A DNA stretch of 64,000 nucleotides, taken from NCBI GenBank assembly GCA_008534395.1, contig SHMQ01000001.1, positions 62,001 through 126,000 of the forward strand. The letters run 5' to 3'. Shown here piece after piece: positions 49,972 through 59,362 of this stretch. The stretch's first letter is position 1; every line of letters begins with the position of its first letter. Under the pieces are notes generated by a model. That model did no database searches. It was not told the DNA's origin and saw only the letters and a list, made by a program, of their open reading frames with translations. The DNA is from Candidatus Acidulodesulfobacterium acidiphilum (GTDB taxonomy: Bacteria; SZUA-79; Acidulodesulfobacterales; Acidulodesulfobacteraceae). Both the position numbers and the translations under genes were made by a program.

Positions 49972-50706
49972 ATGAATAAAATATGGCTTTTGCAAAAACT
50001 AAGAATATTTGAAAATATTCCTTCAAAAGATATTGAGAATATAGATAAACTATCTAAAATGGAATATTATAAGAAAAATGATAACATATATTTAGATGAA
50101 CCTTCATTTAGTTCTATTTATATTTTAAAAGAAGGTAACGTTAAAATAACTTTGTCGAATGAAGATGGAAAAGAATATATAGTTGAAATTCTAAAACCTG
50201 GTGAAATTTTTGGTAATTTCGGCGATTATATCTTGAGCAGCCCAGCAAAACTCGATTTTTTAGAAGCAGAAAACGCTTACGCTTTGACGGATTCTCTGGT
50301 TTGTAAATTCAAAAAAGATGATTTCGACAAAATACTGACCTTTTATCCGGATATAAGTAATAAAATTTTAAAATTAATCGGTTTGCGATTTAAATATATT
50401 TCAACTAAAATTATATCGTTAGCATATAAAAGTTTAGATGTTAGAATTGCCGAGGTCTTAATATACCTTGCAAATAATTTTGGAATTAAAGAAATGATAG
50501 AAAAATCACCGCTTGAAACCAAACAATCCTTACAAATTAAATTTAAATTAACTCACGAAGAAATTTCAAATTTGGCAGGAGCATCAAGACAGAGAACGAC
50601 GATTATACTGGATAAATTAAAATATCTTGGAATTATAGATTTTTATAAAAAAAGACTTATTATAAAAGATTTAAATAAATTAAAAGAAATAGCCGGTCAT
50701 TTTTGA
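49972..50706 (+). CDS. Crp/Fnr family transcriptional regulator
   Basis: 244 residues. The cNMP-binding-type beta-roll is at about 20-130 (YILKEGNVKITLSNEDGKEY, then LKPGEIFGN). The C-terminal helix-turn-helix is LTHEEISNLAGASRQRTTIILDKL. It has no Fnr-type N-terminal Cys cluster, so it does not look like an oxygen sensor of that kind. The effector is unknown. It is convergent with the cytochrome gene. Confidence 0.88.
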   Translation: MNKIWLLQKLRIFENIPSKDIENIDKLSKMEYYKKNDNIYLDEPSFSSIYILKEGNVKITLSNEDGKEYIVEILKPGEIFGNFGDYILSSPAKLDFLEAENAYALTDSLVCKFKKDDFDKILTFYPDISNKILKLIGLRFKYISTKIISLAYKSLDVRIAEVLIYLANNFGIKEMIEKSPLETKQSLQIKFKLTHEEISNLAGASRQRTTIILDKLKYLGIIDFYKKRLIIKDLNKLKEIAGHF

Positions 50707-50713
50707 AAAATTA

Positions 50714-52114
50714 TTAATTTAATTTTATCTGTTTTTTCCATAAAATATATTTACTATCTAAATCTTGTTTTAGTGCTTCTGACATTAAAGTTTTAATAAT
50801 TTTAGGCAACCGCTTAATTTTTAAAAATGCCTTAAAAAATCTAACATAATGAGATTCCGGTTCAACAACTACCCATGCCTTAAGATATTTAGCTGCCTTA
50901 ACTAACGGGCGGTCATAAATTAGTTTAGCGGTTTGAAACGGCTTTAGTCGCGTGTCAAAATACTGCTTTTTTAAATTTAAACTAACGCTCCAGCCGATTA
51001 TATAACTTTCAACCGTTTTTTGATAAATTTCTTTTTCAAAATTTTCTTGACCTATGTACAAAATAACCTTAGGTGTCGTATAAGTAGGAAAATCATGTCC
51101 GACTTCCGAATTTTTTAAACTTAGAATTGCATGGACATTGCCGGAATTAATATGAATTATTTTAAAGCGAATGGTTACGGCTTTCAAAACAAAATTTTTA
51201 TTATAAATGCTTTTAAATGCCATTGACCCTTGCGGATTGTGGCAAACCTCGCATGAAATACCTTTTTTTGCATAAATACTTCGTTTCCACTCGCTGTATG
51301 TATTTTCAAACAATTTCCCGTCAAGCCTCCTTTGATCATGTCCAAATTGATGGCATTTTATACAAAAAAATGAATGATTGAATGCATTAGACGGAACAAA
51401 ACCTCCATGCACAATGTTTCCTTCTTTCATATATTTTTTAACGCCGGGCCCGAATCTGCGGTAATATCTGACATGACAGGCGGCGCAACTGACGCTTAAC
51501 GCACCCCTGCCCATCGGTATTTTTAGCATATTTAAAGCGACGACCATCGCTTTTTGCGCTTTTGAGCCATTTTTTAAGATATTCTTTTCCTTCGCCGTCA
51601 GTCCTTTATATCCGCCATGCTCTACATAATATTCGCCGATGGGCGAATGGCAGCTCATACAACTTTCTACCCAAGGCTTCCAGTGTTTTGATGTCATTTT
51701 TTTTAATAAAAGCTGCGCTACTACACCGGCATCCATCGAATGCGCCATTCTTGAATTTTTCCATTCCTCGTATTGATCGTAATGACATGCCATGCAAGAA
51801 GAGGGTGAAAGGGATTTTTGAATCTCGGGCCATTTATACGGGGGTTTCCCCTCATCGATGGGAGTTTTCCAGTAAATATTTAGGAACTTATGGGTATTTT
51901 TATGTGCGGCAAGTTTCTTCAAATATAAATATTTTTTATCGGCATTTTGATTTCTTACATTAACTTTAGCATAAACATAAATGGTTAAAAAAATAACGGA
52001 TGCAAAAAGTAACGGGATTAAAATTATGGGTAAATAAAGTGCGCTGTTCTTCAACCGCTTAAATCTAAAAATACCCTGAAGGGCATGCAACGATTTATAT
52101 TTCTCAAACTTCAC
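50714..52114 (-). CDS. Penta-heme c-type cytochrome, membrane-anchored
   Basis: 466 residues. One N-terminal membrane segment (about 28-49) anchors it on the periplasmic side. Five CxxCH sites are visible: CMACH, CMSCH, CAACH, CIKCH and CEVCH, all in the first ~290 residues. The rest is a beta-rich domain (HAILSLKNSEVGHDFPTYTTPKVIL) without motifs I know. It is a candidate periplasmic electron carrier or reductase. No gene for a partner oxidoreductase is adjacent. Confidence 0.85.
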   Translation of the reverse strand: MKFEKYKSLHALQGIFRFKRLKNSALYLPIILIPLLFASVIFLTIYVYAKVNVRNQNADKKYLYLKKLAAHKNTHKFLNIYWKTPIDEGKPPYKWPEIQKSLSPSSCMACHYDQYEEWKNSRMAHSMDAGVVAQLLLKKMTSKHWKPWVESCMSCHSPIGEYYVEHGGYKGLTAKEKNILKNGSKAQKAMVVALNMLKIPMGRGALSVSCAACHVRYYRRFGPGVKKYMKEGNIVHGGFVPSNAFNHSFFCIKCHQFGHDQRRLDGKLFENTYSEWKRSIYAKKGISCEVCHNPQGSMAFKSIYNKNFVLKAVTIRFKIIHINSGNVHAILSLKNSEVGHDFPTYTTPKVILYIGQENFEKEIYQKTVESYIIGWSVSLNLKKQYFDTRLKPFQTAKLIYDRPLVKAAKYLKAWVVVEPESHYVRFFKAFLKIKRLPKIIKTLMSEALKQDLDSKYILWKKQIKLN

Positions 52115-52253
52115 AAAACCGCATCCTCGTTAAAATAAACAAACCGGCGCAGCATTAAAAATCCGTAACTTTATCTTATATTATATAATCTATAATATAA
52201 TGATAAAGCAAGAAACGGTTAATTAATCTACGCCGGCAATAAACGGCCTTTTT

Positions 52254-52457
52254 CTATTTCATTCCGCCGCCGTTTCCGCAGGGATTTTTCATTTTACTGT
52301 GAGAATTTTTCATCGAGGTTTTTTTCTTGCCGCAGGCATTTGACATGTTTTTGCCGCAAGGGTTTGACATCCCTGTATTACTTGCATTTGCGTTTCCAAC
52401 CGCAATCAAACCTAACATCATAAATGCGGCCATTGTCATGAAAATTAATTTTTTCAT
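52254..52457 (-). CDS. Small exported Cys/Asn/Gly repeat protein
   Basis: 67 residues with a signal peptide (core at about 5-22, cleavage near ANA). The mature part carries the unit N-(P/A)-C-G three times (SNPCGKN, SNACGKK, KNPCGNG) in a Lys/Met/Asn-rich context, suggesting a metal-binding peptide. The same MKNPCG unit begins the mature part of the exported protein at 53961. GGAGG precedes the ATG. Function unknown. Confidence 0.65.
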   Translation of the reverse strand: MKKLIFMTMAAFMMLGLIAVGNANASNTGMSNPCGKNMSNACGKKKTSMKNSHSKMKNPCGNGGGMK

Positions 52458-52575
52458 AAAGCACCTCCAATTAGTTAATTTTTATTTATTATATAACAGT
52501 ATATTTTACTTTACAATTTGGGATTATTATGTCACGATTGTTACAGTCGGCATTTTTTAAAAGGCTACCGTCAAT

Positions 52576-52692
52576 TTATACATCGGGCACAAATTTTGTT
52601 TTAAAGGTTTTCCTATAAAATTCGGAAAGTTTGCTTCGATAAACTTCAAAATCCCTGCCGCACTTTTGGCATTTATACTGATAAATTGGCAT
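52576..52692 (-). CDS. FmdB-like small zinc-ribbon protein
   Basis: 38 residues from the ATG at 52692: MPIYQYKCQKCGRDFEVYRS. This is the FmdB/CxxC regulatory-family N-terminus. Only one CxxC pair is present; the second, found in full FmdB, is missing. AGGA lies 8 bases upstream. An in-frame ATG at 52719 would give 47 residues. It may be a short family member or a degraded copy. Confidence 0.55.
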   Translation of the reverse strand: MPIYQYKCQKCGRDFEVYRSKLSEFYRKTFKTKFVPDV

Positions 52693-52876
52693 TTTTTGAT
52701 TCCTGTCTTTTTTGATCATTTTTTTATTATAACATATTATAATGATAATGAATTTATAAAAATGTCTCTTACGCGACAGAAATTTTTAAATAATAATGAT
52801 AATTTTATTAAACAAATTTTATTATCAATGGTTAAGAAGGAATAATTAGAAATAATTTAAAAGGGGGATTACTTTT

Positions 52877-53347
52877 ATGTTTAGGATTAGATTAATATTA
52901 ATAGCCGCTTCGATTCTTATTTTAGGTTTTAGCTCGGTTTCCGCGTTCGCTATACAAAATTCTTACTACGGCGGATTTTTTAGAAACTATAATAAACCTG
53001 TAAGGATAGTTGCCGGCGTCAATATGCCTGGACAACAGTTAGGAATTTCCATGCTGAATGCGGAACATGCAATAAAGTACCTTAATTCGGAAGGCAAAAA
53101 ATATTCCATACAGGTAGTTTTTTACGGACCCGTCGTAAAGTTCTTAACCGTTTCGCATAAGAAATACAATCGTTTACTTAATATGCTTAGAAGTAAAGGC
53201 GTAAGCTTCAGGGTCAGCGGCAATGCTTTGATGTTAAACGGCGTGAATCCCAAAAATATTCCGCATTTTATAAAAATAATTCCTAGCGGAACATTGCAGA
53301 TTTTTAAAAAAATCAATGAAGGTTATACTTATCTAATCGCAATGTAA
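52877..53347 (+). CDS. Exported DsrE-like protein upstream of the peptide locus
   Basis: 156 residues with a signal peptide (core at about 6-22, cleavage near AFA). The mature domain (VRIVAGVNMPGQQLGISMLNAEHAIKYL, then SIQVVFYGPVVKFL) has the DsrE/YchN fold pattern; VVFYGPVVKFL parallels LVFFGPVEEFI of the cytoplasmic DsrE protein at 56858. It lacks the catalytic Cys of DsrE carriers. A GGGGG site precedes the ATG. It is 93 bases before the first precursor peptide with no terminator seen, so it may be cotranscribed. Confidence 0.7.
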   Translation: MFRIRLILIAASILILGFSSVSAFAIQNSYYGGFFRNYNKPVRIVAGVNMPGQQLGISMLNAEHAIKYLNSEGKKYSIQVVFYGPVVKFLTVSHKKYNRLLNMLRSKGVSFRVSGNALMLNGVNPKNIPHFIKIIPSGTLQIFKKINEGYTYLIAM

Positions 53348-53440: not shown

Positions 53441-53560
53441 ATGAAAAAGACATATAATGTCCCATTATTTCAGGAAATTCCCGCTGAAGAATTTTATAGT
53501 TTAATCATGGAAGATTACGGAATGAAAGATTTGTGCTATTCCTGCAAATCCTGCAAATAA
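53441..53560 (+). CDS. RiPP precursor peptide 1 (CxxCxxC)
   Basis: 39 residues, MKKTYNVPLFQEIPAEEFYS at the start, ending CYSCKSCK. A strong AGGAGGTG site lies 7 bases before the ATG. It shares the leader pattern (K-x-Y-x-x-P-x-F-x-E-I-x-A-E-E-F) with two further copies at 54617 and 56469. Cys32, 35 and 38 form the likely modified core. The radical SAM maturase at 55147 and PqqD-like protein at 56190 are the expected partners. A weak hairpin follows the stop codon and then a terminator-like stem. Confidence 0.85.
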   Translation: MKKTYNVPLFQEIPAEEFYSLIMEDYGMKDLCYSCKSCK

Positions 53561-53960
53561 GCGCGGTCGACGCTATTTTACTCACCCGCCTTCGTCAGCC
53601 TCATAACGAATAAGAAAGGCGGGTGGATTGTTCAAATACCCTTAGCTTTACCATAATTCATCTTGGATCACTCGGAAAAGCAATTTTCCTGCCATTACCC
53701 GCCGAATAAAAGGAAAAAATCTCCTGTCAATAATTTTAAGATAAATTAGCTTTAAGCGGGCGAGCAAGTATAATACTTATTATAAAACTTATGCCTTATT
53801 GTCACTTAAGTGAATTTTACAATCTTTTTTATAAATTATAATTAAATATAAATAAGATAAATAGGGTACAAAACATTATATCGTCAGGAAACCTGCATAT
53901 TGCCTGCAATATAATAATTATAAATTAATATTTAATTAAATGTAAATGGAGGGTTTTACC
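53561..53960. other. Region between precursor 1 and the exported protein gene
   Basis: About 400 bases. It starts with a small hairpin at 53555-53578 and a 10-bp stem at 53583-53592/53616-53625 (CACCCGCCTT), a probable terminator. The remainder is AT rich, with a likely promoter for the exported protein gene and its ribosome site GGAGGG at about 53948. No further ORF with a ribosome site was found. Confidence 0.5.
53583..53625 (+). terminator. Terminator-like stem after precursor 1
   Basis: 10-bp perfect stem CACCCGCCTT / AAGGCGGGTG with a 23-base loop; no long T-run follows, so efficiency is uncertain. Confidence 0.5.
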
Positions 53961-54581
53961 ATGATTAAAAAAATTATGCCTTTCGTATTAGTGCTTTTAC
54001 TGATGTTTTTTAGTTTCGGCATTCCAAAATCAAACGCCGCTATGATGAAAAATCCCTGCGGCGTCAACACGCGCAACGCTCATAACGCAGGAATGGCGGG
54101 AAAGAGGAGTGCCTTGATGAATACGCTGATAAATAGAACCACCTTAATGAAAATACACAGATTGATACCGTTCATGCAGCCTTACATTCATGCGATAATG
54201 ATTATGCCCTTCTTTTACAAGGTATATCCAGGCGCCCATCTAATATTTATGAATAGCAACATTTTAAAACTAACCCCTTACCAACTAAAACAAGAAGCTA
54301 TGATTGTCAAAAAAGTGCTTAGGGAAAATATATCTCTATTGAATATTTTAAATAGGTCGAGAAAAATGTTTTATATGGAGGTCAATAAAAACAATCCAAG
54401 TGCAAGTAAATTAATCAGCTATGAAAAAACATTCGAAAATACGGAAAAAATACTTGGAGAAAACATAATACGCGCACATATTAAGGCTACCCGCTTACTG
54501 ACTGCTTCACAAAGAAATATCCTCCGCAAATTATTAATTAACTGGCCTGTTGTAAATGTGTCATATCCAGTATATCCATAA
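53961..54581 (+). CDS. Exported helical protein within the peptide locus
   Basis: 206 residues from the ATG at 53961; GGAGGG 9 bases upstream decides this start over the in-frame ATG at 53946. Signal peptide core at about 5-20, cleavage near SNA. The mature part begins MMKNPCGVNTRNAHNAG, sharing NPCG with the exported peptide at 52254, and continues as a long, basic, helix-rich region (LTPYQLKQEAMIVKKVLREN). I recognise no family. It is 35 bases upstream of precursor 2, so it probably belongs to the same transcript. Confidence 0.7.
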   Translation: MIKKIMPFVLVLLLMFFSFGIPKSNAAMMKNPCGVNTRNAHNAGMAGKRSALMNTLINRTTLMKIHRLIPFMQPYIHAIMIMPFFYKVYPGAHLIFMNSNILKLTPYQLKQEAMIVKKVLRENISLLNILNRSRKMFYMEVNKNNPSASKLISYEKTFENTEKILGENIIRAHIKATRLLTASQRNILRKLLINWPVVNVSYPVYP

Positions 54582-54616: not shown

Positions 54617-54736
54617 ATGAAAAGCAGATATGAAGCACCAGTGTTTCAGGAAATTTCGGCGGAAGAGTTCAACTGCATCCTTATGAAAAACTATGGAAAT
54701 ATAAATTCATGTCATACTTGCAGAGCTTGTTTTTAA
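54617..54736 (+). CDS. RiPP precursor peptide 2 (CxxCxxC)
   Basis: 39 residues, MKSRYEAPVFQEISAEEFNC at the start, ending CHTCRACF. GGAGGTG lies 9 bases before the ATG. It has the same leader pattern and the same Cys32/35/38 spacing as copies 1 and 3, with an extra Cys20. A 7-bp hairpin with a GTT loop (54736-54752) immediately follows the stop codon, then a 15-bp terminator. Confidence 0.85.
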   Translation: MKSRYEAPVFQEISAEEFNCILMKNYGNINSCHTCRACF

Positions 54737-54752
54737 TGCGCAGTTTGCGCAT
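54736..54752 (+). promoter_or_regulatory. SECIS-like hairpin after precursor 2
   Basis: ATGCGCAGTTTGCGCAT: a 7-bp stem with a GTT loop, 14 bases after codon 35. It has the same loop and nearly the same position as the hairpin after the TGA in precursor 3, although codon 35 here is TGC. Confidence 0.6.
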
Positions 54753-55146: not shown

Positions 55147-56163
55147 ATGGATGTTTATAATAATAAAAAACCTGATAAAGAATTTTACGTGCAATGGCAT
55201 TTTATAGATTCATGCAATTTAAGATGCAAACATTGCTATCAAAACGGTTACAGCAATAAAAACATCGATTTCGATATTCTGAACGCTATATTTAAAAAAT
55301 TAGACGCAGCAATGGCTAAATGGAATATGAAATGTTATGTTTCTCTGACCGGCGGCGAACCTTTTTTAAAACCTGAAGGACTTTTCTATTTAATGGATTT
55401 AATTGAAAATTCGGATAATTTTAAAAACATCGCAGTTCTGACAAACGGAACTTTAATGACTGATAAGTTAATCGAAAAACTGAAAACTTATAAAAAATTA
55501 TCAGAAATTCAGGTGTCGCTTGACGGTCACGATGAAAAAACACATGATGCAATAAGGGGGGAGGGAACTTTTTTAAAAACGGTAAGCGCGGTTACAATGT
55601 TAAAAAATTCGGGAATAAAAACGGTTTTGATGTTTACGCTTCATAAAAAAAATACCGCATCGGCTTCTAAAATGCCGGAACTTGCAGCTTCGCTTAATAT
55701 AGACGCTTTAACGGTAGAAAGAATGACTACTATGAACGATAAGGAAAAAGACGAATTTTTCATCGAAGCGGAAGAGTTAAAAAAAATATATACCGACGTT
55801 TACGAAAAATCGAAAATCGAATTCAAAAATTCCAATACCAAACTTTCGACGTCGCGTCCGTTATGGAACCTGATAGACGAAAATACCGGCGGATATTGTC
55901 CTATAGGTTTATCGTCCTTATGTATATTGCATGACGGCACGATGCTCCCATGCAGAAGGCTTTATCTTCCGCTCGGAAATATCTTAACGGACGGACTATT
56001 TAAAGTATGGTATAATTCAGATATCTTATGGAATTTAAGAAAAAGGAACGGTGAAAACGAATGCAATAATTGCGCTAAGTCCGATAGATGCGGCGGATGC
56101 AAAGCAATAAGCTATTATTATAATCACGATTTCAATTCAAAAGACCCTCAGTGCTGGATATAA
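55147..56163 (+). CDS. Radical SAM/SPASM peptide maturase
   Basis: 338 residues. The radical SAM cluster is CNLRCKHCY (Cys23, 27, 30). SAM-binding segments are SLTGGEPFL and VSLDGHDEKTHDAIRG. A C-terminal SPASM region holds further Cys: YCPIGLSSLC, PCRR, ECNNCAKSDRCGGC and QCWI, enough for two auxiliary 4Fe-4S clusters. It modifies ribosomal peptides, here probably the three 39-residue precursors around it. It resembles what I recall of 'selenobiotic' maturases; a profile search would decide. A PqqD-like gene follows. Confidence 0.9.
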   Translation: MDVYNNKKPDKEFYVQWHFIDSCNLRCKHCYQNGYSNKNIDFDILNAIFKKLDAAMAKWNMKCYVSLTGGEPFLKPEGLFYLMDLIENSDNFKNIAVLTNGTLMTDKLIEKLKTYKKLSEIQVSLDGHDEKTHDAIRGEGTFLKTVSAVTMLKNSGIKTVLMFTLHKKNTASASKMPELAASLNIDALTVERMTTMNDKEKDEFFIEAEELKKIYTDVYEKSKIEFKNSNTKLSTSRPLWNLIDENTGGYCPIGLSSLCILHDGTMLPCRRLYLPLGNILTDGLFKVWYNSDILWNLRKRNGENECNNCAKSDRCGGCKAISYYYNHDFNSKDPQCWI

Positions 56164-56189
56164 AAATAATTCTCAAAAGGAATGACGAA

Positions 56190-56450
56190 ATGCTAAAACT
56201 TGCGGATACGGTGTCGATAAAACAAGACGAAACGTACTATATTTTTTTTGATAACGAAACCGGCGATATTTATAAACTTAACGAAATATCCTATAAAATT
56301 TTATCTTTATGCGACGGAAGTACGACTAACGAAGATATATTGTCAACTATAATGCAGGAATTTAACGTAACCTACCAGGAAGCAAAAAAAGACTTTGATA
56401 AATTAATTCAAACGCTTTTAAGCAAAAAATATATTTATAACAACGAATAA
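56190..56450 (+). CDS. PqqD-like peptide chaperone (RiPP recognition element)
   Basis: About 86 residues from the ATG at 56190, with AAGGA in front. The PqqD fold is recognisable: ETYYIFFDNETGDIYKLNEISYKILSLCDGSTTNEDIL, then FNVTYQEAKKDFDKLIQTLLSKKYI. Such proteins hold the leader of a precursor peptide for the radical SAM enzyme. A longer reading from a GTG at 56151 overlaps the maturase end and is less likely. It is 18 bases upstream of precursor 3, so the maturase, carrier and precursor 3 form one operon. Confidence 0.85.
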   Translation: MLKLADTVSIKQDETYYIFFDNETGDIYKLNEISYKILSLCDGSTTNEDILSTIMQEFNVTYQEAKKDFDKLIQTLLSKKYIYNNE

Positions 56451-56468: not shown

Positions 56469-56588
56469 ATGAAAAAGGTGTATGATGCGCCGATGTTCGC
56501 AGAAATTCCGGCAGAAGAATTTTATTCATTAATTAACAAAGATTACGGCTTAAAGGATTCTTGCTATTCCTGAAAGGAGTGCAAATAA
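56469..56588 (+). CDS. RiPP precursor 3, putative selenopeptide (in-frame TGA)
   Basis: 39 codons, MKKVYDAPMFAEIPAEEFYS at the start. Codon 35 is TGA (56571-56573), where copies 1 and 2 have Cys; the frame then continues K-E-C-K to TAA. If TGA is read as selenocysteine the tail is CYSUKECK. AGGAGGTG lies 6 bases before the ATG. A 7-bp hairpin with a GTT loop starts 13 bases after TGA, fitting a bacterial SECIS. If TGA were a plain stop, the product would end at residue 34 and keep only Cys32. Sec genes are not in the window. Confidence 0.75.
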
Positions 56589-56603
56589 GCGCAGTTTGCG
56601 CTT
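56587..56603 (+). promoter_or_regulatory. Candidate SECIS element of precursor 3
   Basis: AAGCGCAGTTTGCGCTT: a 7-bp stem with a GTT loop, overlapping the TAA. The loop begins 20 bases after the TGA and its first base is G. Both match the bacterial SECIS description as I recall it (loop 16-37 bases from UGA, G in the first two loop positions). Confidence 0.65.
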
Positions 56604-56610
56604 AATTAAA

Positions 56611-56657
56611 AATTCTCCGACCGTTCGGCATTATTTTAAAAAAACGGTCGGAGAATT
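56611..56657 (+). terminator. Terminator after precursor 3
   Basis: 15-bp perfect stem AATTCTCCGACCGTT (56611-56625) with its complement at 56643-56657, followed by ATTTT. Confidence 0.85.
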
Positions 56658-56857: not shown

Positions 56858-57208
56858 ATGTCGAAAGCAAAAGCTTTAGTAATGATCTTATCGGGCGGCA
56901 ACGATTCAGCAAAAGTGAAAGTAGGGCTTAATTTTGCATGGAGAACAAAAAACGGCGGAGCGTTTGAAGACGTGAAACTCGTATTTTTCGGTCCGGTAGA
57001 AGAATTTATCGCAAAAACGGATGACAAAGAAATACTTGAAGCGTATGAACAGGTTCTCGCCAATAATATCGTGCCTCATGCATGCGTTGCAATAGCCGAA
57101 GGATACGGCATCGCTCCTATTTTGACAAGCAAGAAAATGGAACTAGTTCACGCAGGACAGGCAATAGCCGGATTTATGGCCGACGGATACCAGCCGATAA
57201 CTTTTTAG
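56858..57208 (+). CDS. DsrE family protein
   Basis: 116 residues, cytoplasmic. It starts MSKAKALVMILSGGNDSAKVKVGLNFAW, with LVFFGPVEEFI and the Cys-containing VPHACVAIAEGYG, where sulfur-carrier DsrE proteins hold their active Cys. It may carry sulfane sulfur. GGAGG precedes the ATG. It stands alone, after the RiPP terminator and before a TetR gene on the same strand. Confidence 0.82.
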   Translation: MSKAKALVMILSGGNDSAKVKVGLNFAWRTKNGGAFEDVKLVFFGPVEEFIAKTDDKEILEAYEQVLANNIVPHACVAIAEGYGIAPILTSKKMELVHAGQAIAGFMADGYQPITF

Positions 57209-58195: not shown

Positions 58196-58567
58196 TTAAA
58201 TAACGATTATTTGCCAACCGTCGTTTATAAGTTTTCCTACGTCGGGATGCCCCTCGAACTCCGATAAAAACTGAATATTTTTTGCGGACAAGCTTTCTTT
58301 GACTTCCTTCCTTGTGGAACAAAAGCCGCATGCTTTATATATAATACCCATTTCTGTGATTTCTTTAAAAAGTTTATTCAGAAAATCGAATTTAGAGGTT
58401 TCGTTTGAAATAATATCGAGCCACTTTGTGCCGTTGCCGTCAAAGATTAGCGTTATTTCATTTCCTGATAACTTTATCTCTTTGGAATAAATCATAGCAT
58501 GCCTTATTTTTGCGACCGACTCTTCTTGCGACGGTCCTTCTAAAACTATAATAGCTATTTTCGCCAT
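58196..58567 (-). CDS. DsrE/DsrF-like protein with a CxxC motif
   Basis: 123 residues. The fold pattern MAKIAIIVLEGPSQEESVAKIRHAM...ITLIFDGNGTKWL, followed by YKACGFCSTRKEV, places it in the DsrE superfamily. The CGFC pair sits where sulfur-carrying Cys are found. It lies between the HMA and thioredoxin genes on the same strand. Confidence 0.72.
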   Translation of the reverse strand: MAKIAIIVLEGPSQEESVAKIRHAMIYSKEIKLSGNEITLIFDGNGTKWLDIISNETSKFDFLNKLFKEITEMGIIYKACGFCSTRKEVKESLSAKNIQFLSEFEGHPDVGKLINDGWQIIVI

Positions 58568-58623: not shown

Positions 58624-58887
58624 TTATGACAAATCAATCAATTCCGATGCCTCTTCCTTAGTAGGTATGCCGACGAATGCAAGTTTCCCGTCAATTAACG
58701 TTGTAGGAACGCTTCTAACATATAATTCTATAGAAAGCCTCCTCCCCTCAGGTTCAGAAACGTCTAACGACCTGTAATTAAAATCTTTTCTTTCCTCTGC
58801 CAATCTTTTCCAAGCGTTATCTGCGGGAACACATTCCTCGCACCATTTTGAAACGAGCAGTATGACGTCGTGTTTTTTATTCTCCAT
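58624..58887 (-). CDS. Thioredoxin-like protein
   Basis: 87 residues. The active site SKWCEECVPADNAW is WCxxC type. The cis-Pro is in RSVPTTLIDGK. It is shorter than thioredoxin (about 108) and more like a minimal glutaredoxin-type fold. Probably reduces the DsrE or lipoyl partners encoded next to it (inference). It starts 25 bases downstream of the lipoyl protein stop. Confidence 0.8.
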   Translation of the reverse strand: MENKKHDVILLVSKWCEECVPADNAWKRLAEERKDFNYRSLDVSEPEGRRLSIELYVRSVPTTLIDGKLAFVGIPTKEEASELIDLS

Positions 58888-58912: not shown

Positions 58913-59362
58913 TTACTGGCTTGAACATCTCATGCACTGAATCTGATCTTTTATTATTTTTTCCTTGTATTTTTCCACGGCTTCTTTTCCTGTCAGTAAA
59001 GTTTTTAATTCGTTTATGTCCGAAGCTTTTACTTTGCTTACCCATGCATCGGTATATGGAGATAAATTTAATAAAAGAGGGTCTTTCAGGAGCGCTTCGT
59101 TTACTTCGATGATTTCGCCCGATACCGGAGATGGAATAGGTCCTACCCATTTTCCGCTTTCTATCGTAGCGGTATTACCTCTTTTTTGAACTATACTGCC
59201 GACTTTTTTGAAAGTAACATGTAGTATCTTGCCCGCCTGCGTTTGCGCAACGTCCGTCATTCCAAGCATAACGATATTATCTCCTAAAGGTTTTGCCCAA
59301 GTATCTTTTTCGACGTCGTAATATAAATCTTCAGGAAGTTCGCAACCCTGTACTTCAGCCAT
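58913..59362 (-). CDS. GcvH-like lipoyl carrier protein
   Basis: 149 residues of the glycine-cleavage H fold: YYDVEKDTWAKPLGDNIVMLGMTDVAQ, then IESGKWVGPIPSPVSGEIIEVN with the lipoyl Lys near residue 71, and YTDAWVSKVKASD. A C-terminal extension ends in CMRC. No P- or T-protein genes are near. Together with DsrE and thioredoxin genes it resembles the lipoate-binding proteins of sulfur-oxidising (sHdr-type) systems rather than glycine cleavage. First gene of the minus-strand group. Confidence 0.82.
   Translation of the reverse strand: MAEVQGCELPEDLYYDVEKDTWAKPLGDNIVMLGMTDVAQTQAGKILHVTFKKVGSIVQKRGNTATIESGKWVGPIPSPVSGEIIEVNEALLKDPLLLNLSPYTDAWVSKVKASDINELKTLLTGKEAVEKYKEKIIKDQIQCMRCSSQ

Follow-up and report, generated by a model that had tools for sequence, protein, structure and literature searches.

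A 2026 compilation of prokaryotic selenoproteins contains, in the portions of the text available to us, one RiPP-type family with selenocysteine (Sec), the 'selenobacteriocin' (PMC13188914). Its precursor SbtA corresponds to TIGR04081 and its maturase SbtM to TIGR04082 (Lewis et al. 2021, Biochemistry 60:3347, as cited in the accessible parts of PMC11002830 and PMC13188914). The motif listed for SbtA is SGUG with two Sec residues (PMC13188914, Table 1), and SbtM is described as turning Cys or Sec peptides into thio(seleno)oxazoles (PMC11002830). For the bacterial SECIS element (bSECIS) the compilation gives these rules: a small apical loop with a G in the first two positions, a stem of 4-16 bp, a distance of 16-37 nt from the UGA and an MFE <= -7.5 (PMC13188914).

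Here we describe a locus of Candidatus Acidulodesulfobacterium acidiphilum that resembles this system. It lies in a 64,000-nucleotide stretch of contig SHMQ01000001.1 (assembly GCA_008534395.1, positions 62,001 to 126,000), which we call the window. Sec-containing RiPPs as such are already known; we consider the present precursor new, though an earlier description of exactly this peptide cannot be fully excluded.

Three precursor copies are found in the window (Table 1), each 39 residues long and each preceded by a strong Shine-Dalgarno sequence (AGGAGGTGA). The N-terminal leader is conserved (MKK.Y..P.F.EI.AEEFY), and the C-terminal core predicted for copy 3 is C-x-x-U-K-x-C-K. At codon 35, copy 1 (ATG 53441, TGC 53543-53545) and copy 2 (ATG 54617, TGC 54719-54721) both have TGC. 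Copy 3, which scores 90 bits against an HMM of the precursor family built in the present analysis, extends on the forward strand from ATG 56469 to TAA 56586-56588 (39 sense codons plus the stop) and reads MKKVYDAPMFAEIPAEEFYSLINKDYGLKDSCYS-(TGA)-KECK-TAA. An earlier, sequence-only reading of this DNA had pointed out the two TGC codons and the TGA, a frame that continues past the TGA through the family's own tail K-E-C-K to a TAA at 39 codons, and a 7-bp hairpin with loop GTT that begins 13 bases after the TGA, its loop 20 bases away and G first. We recover all of these features, the hairpin at 56587-56603.

Table 1. Features of the window and of related loci.
Feature	Position	Strand	Evidence or remark
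Precursor copy 1, Cys form (...DLCYSCKSCK)	53441..53560	+	Sequence, family profile
Decayed SECIS relic AGCGCGGTCGACGCT after copy 1	53560..53574	+	Comparison with G045 orthologue
Signal-peptide-like protein, NPCG motif, weakly linked	53946..54581	+	Duplicated together with precursor on contig C66
Precursor copy 2, Cys form (...SCHTCRACF)	54617..54736	+	Sequence; C66 paralogue (L199) has TGA here
Intact SECIS-type hairpin ATGCGCA-GTT-TGCGCAT behind Cys-coding copy 2	54736..54752	+	Identical behind TGA paralogue on C66
Radical SAM/SPASM protein, 338 aa, presumed maturase (CNLRCKHC)	55147..56163	+	Pfam PF04055, PF13186
PqqD-family protein, presumed leader-binding RRE	56151..56450	+	PF05402; overlaps end of radical SAM gene
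Precursor copy 3, MKKVYDAPMFAEIPAEEFYSLINKDYGLKDSCYS-U-KECK, 39 residues (U predicted)	56469..56588	+	Shine-Dalgarno AAGGAGGTGA upstream; sequence, HMM
In-frame TGA, codon 35, predicted to be read as selenocysteine	56571..56573	+	TGA at same codon in 23 of 30 species, SECIS-type hairpin after it, Sec machinery in genome
SECIS-type hairpin AAGCGCA-GUU-UGCGCUU, copy 3	56587..56603	+	Covariation, folding; begins in stop codon, extends into 3' UTR
Probable transcription terminator, inverted repeat then T-rich stretch	56611..56657	+	By inspection of sequence
Two-TGA precursors (CxxU-x-x-U-K) directly upstream of radical SAM gene	L108 5722, L112 4749, L119 5768, L123 5738	+	Sequence
Two-TGA precursors (CxxU-x-x-U-K) directly upstream of radical SAM gene	L133 5828, L138 795, L143 2299, L156 1555	+	Sequence

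The locus shares with SbtA/SbtM, as far as the accessible descriptions go, a short precursor, a Sec codon followed by a SECIS element, and a radical SAM/SPASM maturase. SbtM accepts either Cys or Sec (PMC11002830, as far as available), and the present family has both forms naturally. In contrast to the SGUG motif with two Sec residues given for SbtA in the accessible text, the core is CxxUKxCK (CYSUKECK in copy 3) with one Sec. Unlike SbtM, the radical SAM protein reaches only 145.4 bits against TIGR04082 (cut-off 350), aligning with profile positions 199-515 of 516, and PqqD is a separate protein. With the maturase under its cut-off and no SGUG/two-Sec precursor present, we reject membership of the SbtA/SbtM family.

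The best NCBIfam match of the radical SAM protein is the ACGX system (TIGR04340). Membership of this system is also rejected: the score of 150.3 bits is far under the cut-off of 400, and our precursors do not have the ACGX repeat. The precursors themselves give no NCBIfam match at E <= 1, and nothing in Pfam beyond one chance match (E = 0.18). We also modelled the structure of this enzyme; the model, with a mean pLDDT of 74.5 and low values in the SPASM region, comes closest to SkfB, SuiB and CteB (~20% identity). By sequence, too, SkfB and CteB are the nearest entries in the PDB. To our knowledge, the known substrates of these three enzymes are without Sec.

In radical SAM RiPP systems, the modifying enzyme and its leader-binding partner are classically a radical SAM protein and a PqqD protein. 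Genes for both lie upstream of copy 3. The radical SAM protein exceeds the cut-offs of PF04055 (85.7 bits) and PF13186 (31.7 bits), and the cysteines of its SPASM region (251, 269, 306, 309, 315, 318 and 336) are invariant; the PqqD-family protein scores 53.4 bits against PF05402 (cut-off 23). These two genes are the only neighbours common to every compared locus with the system, and the precursor is often beside them.

The pair also occurs together with the precursor across genomes. If G001 is set aside, whose radical SAM gene is cut off by a contig end, the genomes with PqqD and those with the radical SAM gene are the same 22. Sec precursor and radical SAM gene are both present in 21 genomes and both absent from 5, with 2 and 2 discordant (Fisher p = 0.003; the test ignores relatedness). 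For two genomes with an intact Sec precursor, G019 (C5:33449-33565) and G042 (C22:192-308), the searches gave neither a close radical SAM gene nor a close PqqD gene; the enzyme may therefore not be obligatory, or it may have been lost or missed there. In several genomes (G020, G021, G023, G024) the precursor is unlinked to the enzyme.

When the family profile is run against this small phylum, which we take to be Candidatus Acidulodesulfobacterota (SZUA-79), 27 of its 30 species prove to have precursors. TGA stands at the Cys35 codon in 23 species, four have Cys forms only and three have no precursor. The in-frame UGA hence aligns with Cys of homologues and is kept in relatives, as is expected of a selenoprotein. 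We scored 21 distinct Sec genes in detail. Of 12 different tails after the TGA, 11 read K-[S/E]-C-K. Within these 11, codons +1, +3 and +4 differ only synonymously (AAA/AAG, TGC/TGT, AAA/AAG), and codon +2 switches between Ser and Glu. The third Cys of the core is invariant, and the frame closes four or five codons past the Sec codon with TAA, TAG or TGA. This looks like protein-level selection beyond the UGA, and such selection would imply that translation passes the UGA.

The hairpin of copy 3 meets the bSECIS rules given above. It starts 13 nt after the TGA; its loop, GUU with G first, follows at 20 nt; its stem has 7 bp, or 8 with a possible T-A pair at the base; and the segment folds at -10.0 kcal/mol (z = -3.7). 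Hairpins were scored by adding GC pairs to stem pairs, and one of the first two loop positions had to be a G. Of the 1,435 TGA triplets on both strands of the window, only 0.5% score as high as copy 3, and a score of at least 9 is reached by 21/21 distinct Sec genes, compared to 3.2% of random TGA sites and 2/8 Cys genes.

When the full 42-nt segment after the UGA is folded, an alternative of similar energy appears (-11.1 kcal/mol), in which part of the coding tail pairs with the 3' arm. We infer that the 5' part of this helix would probably be covered by the ribosome at the UGA. Covariation supports the apical hairpin. In a loop-centred alignment of 15 distinct hairpins, 4/6 pairs have changed on both sides and pairing holds in 93% of cells. 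Covariation scores 0.346 compared to 0.170 in shuffles, none of 500 shuffles scores as high, and the signal is destroyed when the pairing partner is slid. The shuffle count is not a p-value because the aligned sequences are related. The loop reads A-G-[G/U]-U-N, with AG[GU]U invariant in intact Sec copies; part of this conservation arises by construction, since the loop served to find the alignment centre. Searching the genome with the Rfam model SECIS_1 (RF00031) gives no match, and control genomes gave none either, so this result is uninformative. An Rfam scan of the locus at E <= 10 returns chance-level matches only.

The genome (2.09 Mb, 70 contigs, estimated 100% complete) has selA (558 bits, cut-off 268), selB (315 bits, cut-off 242) and selD (370 bits, cut-off 125), all above curated cut-offs. 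SelD itself has an in-frame TGA at the canonical Sec position (AHGUGCK), which is an independent sign that the lineage decodes Sec. Across the phylum selB is above cut-off in 27 of 30 species, and the exceptions (G011, G014, G024) are incomplete assemblies. The own assembly contains no match to tRNA-Sec (selC, RF01852) over the cut-off, only weak tRNA-like matches of at most 43 bits. In G012 and G005, selC lies in an interval at whose borders the own contigs C46 and C64 end. The match of one flank to C46 stops 16 bases short of the contig end (13,793 of 13,809), and in G005 it reaches the last base; the other flank matches C64 from base 1. Since the interval is bounded in this way, selC most probably falls in an assembly gap.

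The sequence-only reading had named two ways in which it could fail: an absence of selABCD from a complete genome, or no relative with TGA at this codon and a degraded tail. Neither applies. On the first point selA, selB and selD are there, and selC is missing from the assembly, most probably because of that gap; on the second, relatives have the TGA together with an intact tail and hairpin. Its conclusion, a 'probable selenopeptide', is well supported as a prediction at the gene level.

A fourth precursor copy in the same genome also has the TGA (...DSCYV-U-RACF; G000:C66:2677-2793, minus strand, L199). It sits on a 3.7-kb contig with a paralogue of the NPCG-motif protein of the window. This copy has TGA where copy 2 has TGC, tail and hairpin are identical from the next codon onward, and the flanking DNA can be aligned over 1.1 kb, upstream gene included. 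Because TGA and TGC paralogues in one genome share tail and hairpin, we interpret them as a natural Sec/Cys precursor pair within one cell. Such a pair offers a direct route to the question why a cell pays for selenium at one of 39 residues. It also lets one ask whether the radical SAM maturase treats sulfur and selenium alike.

In Cys copies the hairpin is mostly lost or a relic, but copy 2 has a perfect one. Copy 1 has AGCGCGGTCGACGCT where its G045 orthologue keeps a full stem (AGCGC-GGTCG-GCGCT), and the Cys copies in G013 and on contig C27 of G020 retain a stem-like relic in which the loop G has become A. To judge from these remnants, the Cys copies look like former Sec copies. The conversion has probably happened repeatedly; its direction, from Sec to Cys, is inferred from the relics and not proved.

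We believe that copy 3 very probably encodes the Sec-containing precursor peptide of a RiPP-type system, although there are no translation, proteomic or selenium data. Predicted Sec decoding is the part in which we have most confidence, and we hold it to be very likely. That the product is a substrate of the adjacent radical SAM/PqqD pair is likely, its modification being inferred. The support demonstrated so far is of the sequence level: the UGA and its conservation, selection on the tail, the hairpin with its covariation, the Sec machinery of the genome, and a precursor that is linked to the enzyme pair and co-occurs with it. Sec insertion itself, the pairing of enzyme and substrate, the chemistry and the role are inferences.

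Under this explanation, the hairpin behind the UGA would direct the ribosome, with the help of SelB and tRNA-Sec, to read this codon as Sec. The product would be a 39-residue peptide of leader and core. The PqqD-type protein would bind the leader and present the core to the radical SAM/SPASM enzyme, which would modify it, most likely by oxidation or a cross-link at the Cys/Sec residues. Candidate products are a seleno/thioether or a seleno/thio-oxazole. Since Cys can stand at the Sec position, the enzyme can probably use either sulfur or selenium. The biological role is probably redox or metal binding, which again is inferred.

Could the UGA instead be a true, possibly selenium-regulated stop? 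The functional peptide would then end with ...DSCYS and the tail would survive as RNA structure only. UGA is a normal stop in this genome (it ends 9/54 long open frames in the window), and the hairpin begins in the stop codon, so an RNA constraint could preserve some adjacent bases. We nevertheless regard this as very improbable: at tail codons outside the hairpin nearly every change is synonymous, the third Cys never varies, the frame retains its length and its stop although TAA, TAG and TGA are all used for it, and the Cys copies translate the same tail. A decaying pseudogene, with TGA as a chance nonsense mutation of a Cys codon, is scarcely tenable when TGA recurs at one codon in 23 species with an intact frame, a strong Shine-Dalgarno sequence and a hairpin, even though one copy in the phylum (G008:C88) is visibly broken by a frameshift and has lost the third Cys. 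Reassignment of UGA to an ordinary amino acid in the lineage has nothing in its favour beyond the in-frame TGA itself. Ordinary genes end in TGA, and so do eight of the 21 Sec precursors, in which it comes four or five codons behind the Sec codon. Both this and the canonical Sec site of SelD argue against reassignment, which we consider practically ruled out.

Alternatively, copy 3 may encode a Sec peptide that is not a RiPP. It would then be a small peptide (CxxUxxC) that acts in redox reactions or binds metal without being modified, and radical SAM and PqqD would serve another substrate. Other proteins use CxxCxxC cores to bind metals or FeS clusters, and the two genomes with a Sec precursor and without the enzyme pair (G019, G042) fit such a peptide. 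CxxU is moreover a common redox motif in selenoproteins (PMC13188914, in the parts available). The layout of leader and core, the tight linkage in most genomes and the co-occurrence of precursor and enzyme argue for a RiPP instead, as do related radical SAM genes elsewhere that adjoin analogous C-rich precursors. We therefore think the unmodified peptide unlikely and retain the Sec-containing RiPP precursor.

A tree of 57 radical SAM proteins, built with a short search and supported by SH-aLRT values only, places the enzymes of the phylum in one clade. Its neighbours are Cys-only systems from Hydrogenedentota, WOR-3 and Bacillota MAGs (L094, L095, L096, L105), which have the nearest radical SAM proteins outside the phylum (45-47% identity). 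They likewise have a C-terminal core (WCFGCTNCNCN or similar), and differ in their leader and in having no Sec. Next come enzymes beside CRQCS-CHGCR precursors, which the radical SAM relatives in L041/L072 and L099 adjoin.

A different radical SAM clade goes with two-Sec precursors of the form CxxUxxUK, which we found in Nitrospirota, Chloroflexota and Desulfobacterota-type MAGs (loci in Table 1). These systems are like ours in having a core, CxxUKx[U/C]K, encoded directly beside the radical SAM gene and a hairpin behind the UGA. They differ in their enzyme clade, an unrelated leader and two Sec residues. Two members compared with NCBIfam gave no match. The SGUG motif, as given in the accessible part of PMC13188914, speaks against identifying them with SbtA. 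Possibly they are another unreported Sec-RiPP family. At one further locus (L134 5846), Cys occupies the first of the two TGA positions.

What these predicted peptides have in common is the core C-x-x-Z-x-x-Z at the C-terminus (Z = Cys or Sec), in which the first position is always Cys. Sec was probably gained repeatedly in this superfamily, or else repeatedly lost. With some reserve, we lean towards a separate single-Sec RiPP family (core C-x-x-U-K-x-C-K) that is old in the phylum, whose selenium entry was independent of other Sec-RiPP lineages, in which one maturase serves natural Sec and Cys substrates in one cell, and whose repeated Sec-to-Cys switches can be read in decaying hairpins. To the one family in the available portions of the 2026 compilation, it adds a second of Sec-RiPP type, with a different core, leader and maturase clade and in most species of one uncultured phylum.

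No conserved neighbour beyond radical SAM and PqqD in the compared loci is specific to the system, and neither transporters nor proteases are conserved next to the precursor. Bio-type and other widely shared genes at some loci reflect a common chromosomal neighbourhood. Neither Pfam nor NCBIfam gives a match for the NPCG-motif protein. Around the cluster (52877-53347, 56858-57208, 58196-58567, 58624-58887, 58913-59362) lie genes for DsrE-like proteins, for a small thioredoxin and for a GcvH-like (lipoyl-type) protein. They are suggestive of sulfur metabolism and mostly not conserved beside the precursor of relatives; DsrE, cytochrome and GcvH-like neighbours occur in only 3-4 compared loci.

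The broken copy in G008 (C88:12060-12167; L055 7594) has a frameshift, its third Cys changed to Tyr and its hairpin lost. It adjoins an intact radical SAM gene, and an intact TGA copy exists elsewhere in that genome. In the genome studied here, a second radical SAM and PqqD pair (radical SAM 71% identical), at which no precursor was found, lies beside the other copy of a duplicated block (window 49972-52719, L048 1829-6044). The block contains a CRP-type regulator, a multihaem cytochrome, an NPCG/NACG repeat peptide and an FmdB-type zinc ribbon, whose copy in the window (52576-52719) appears truncated.
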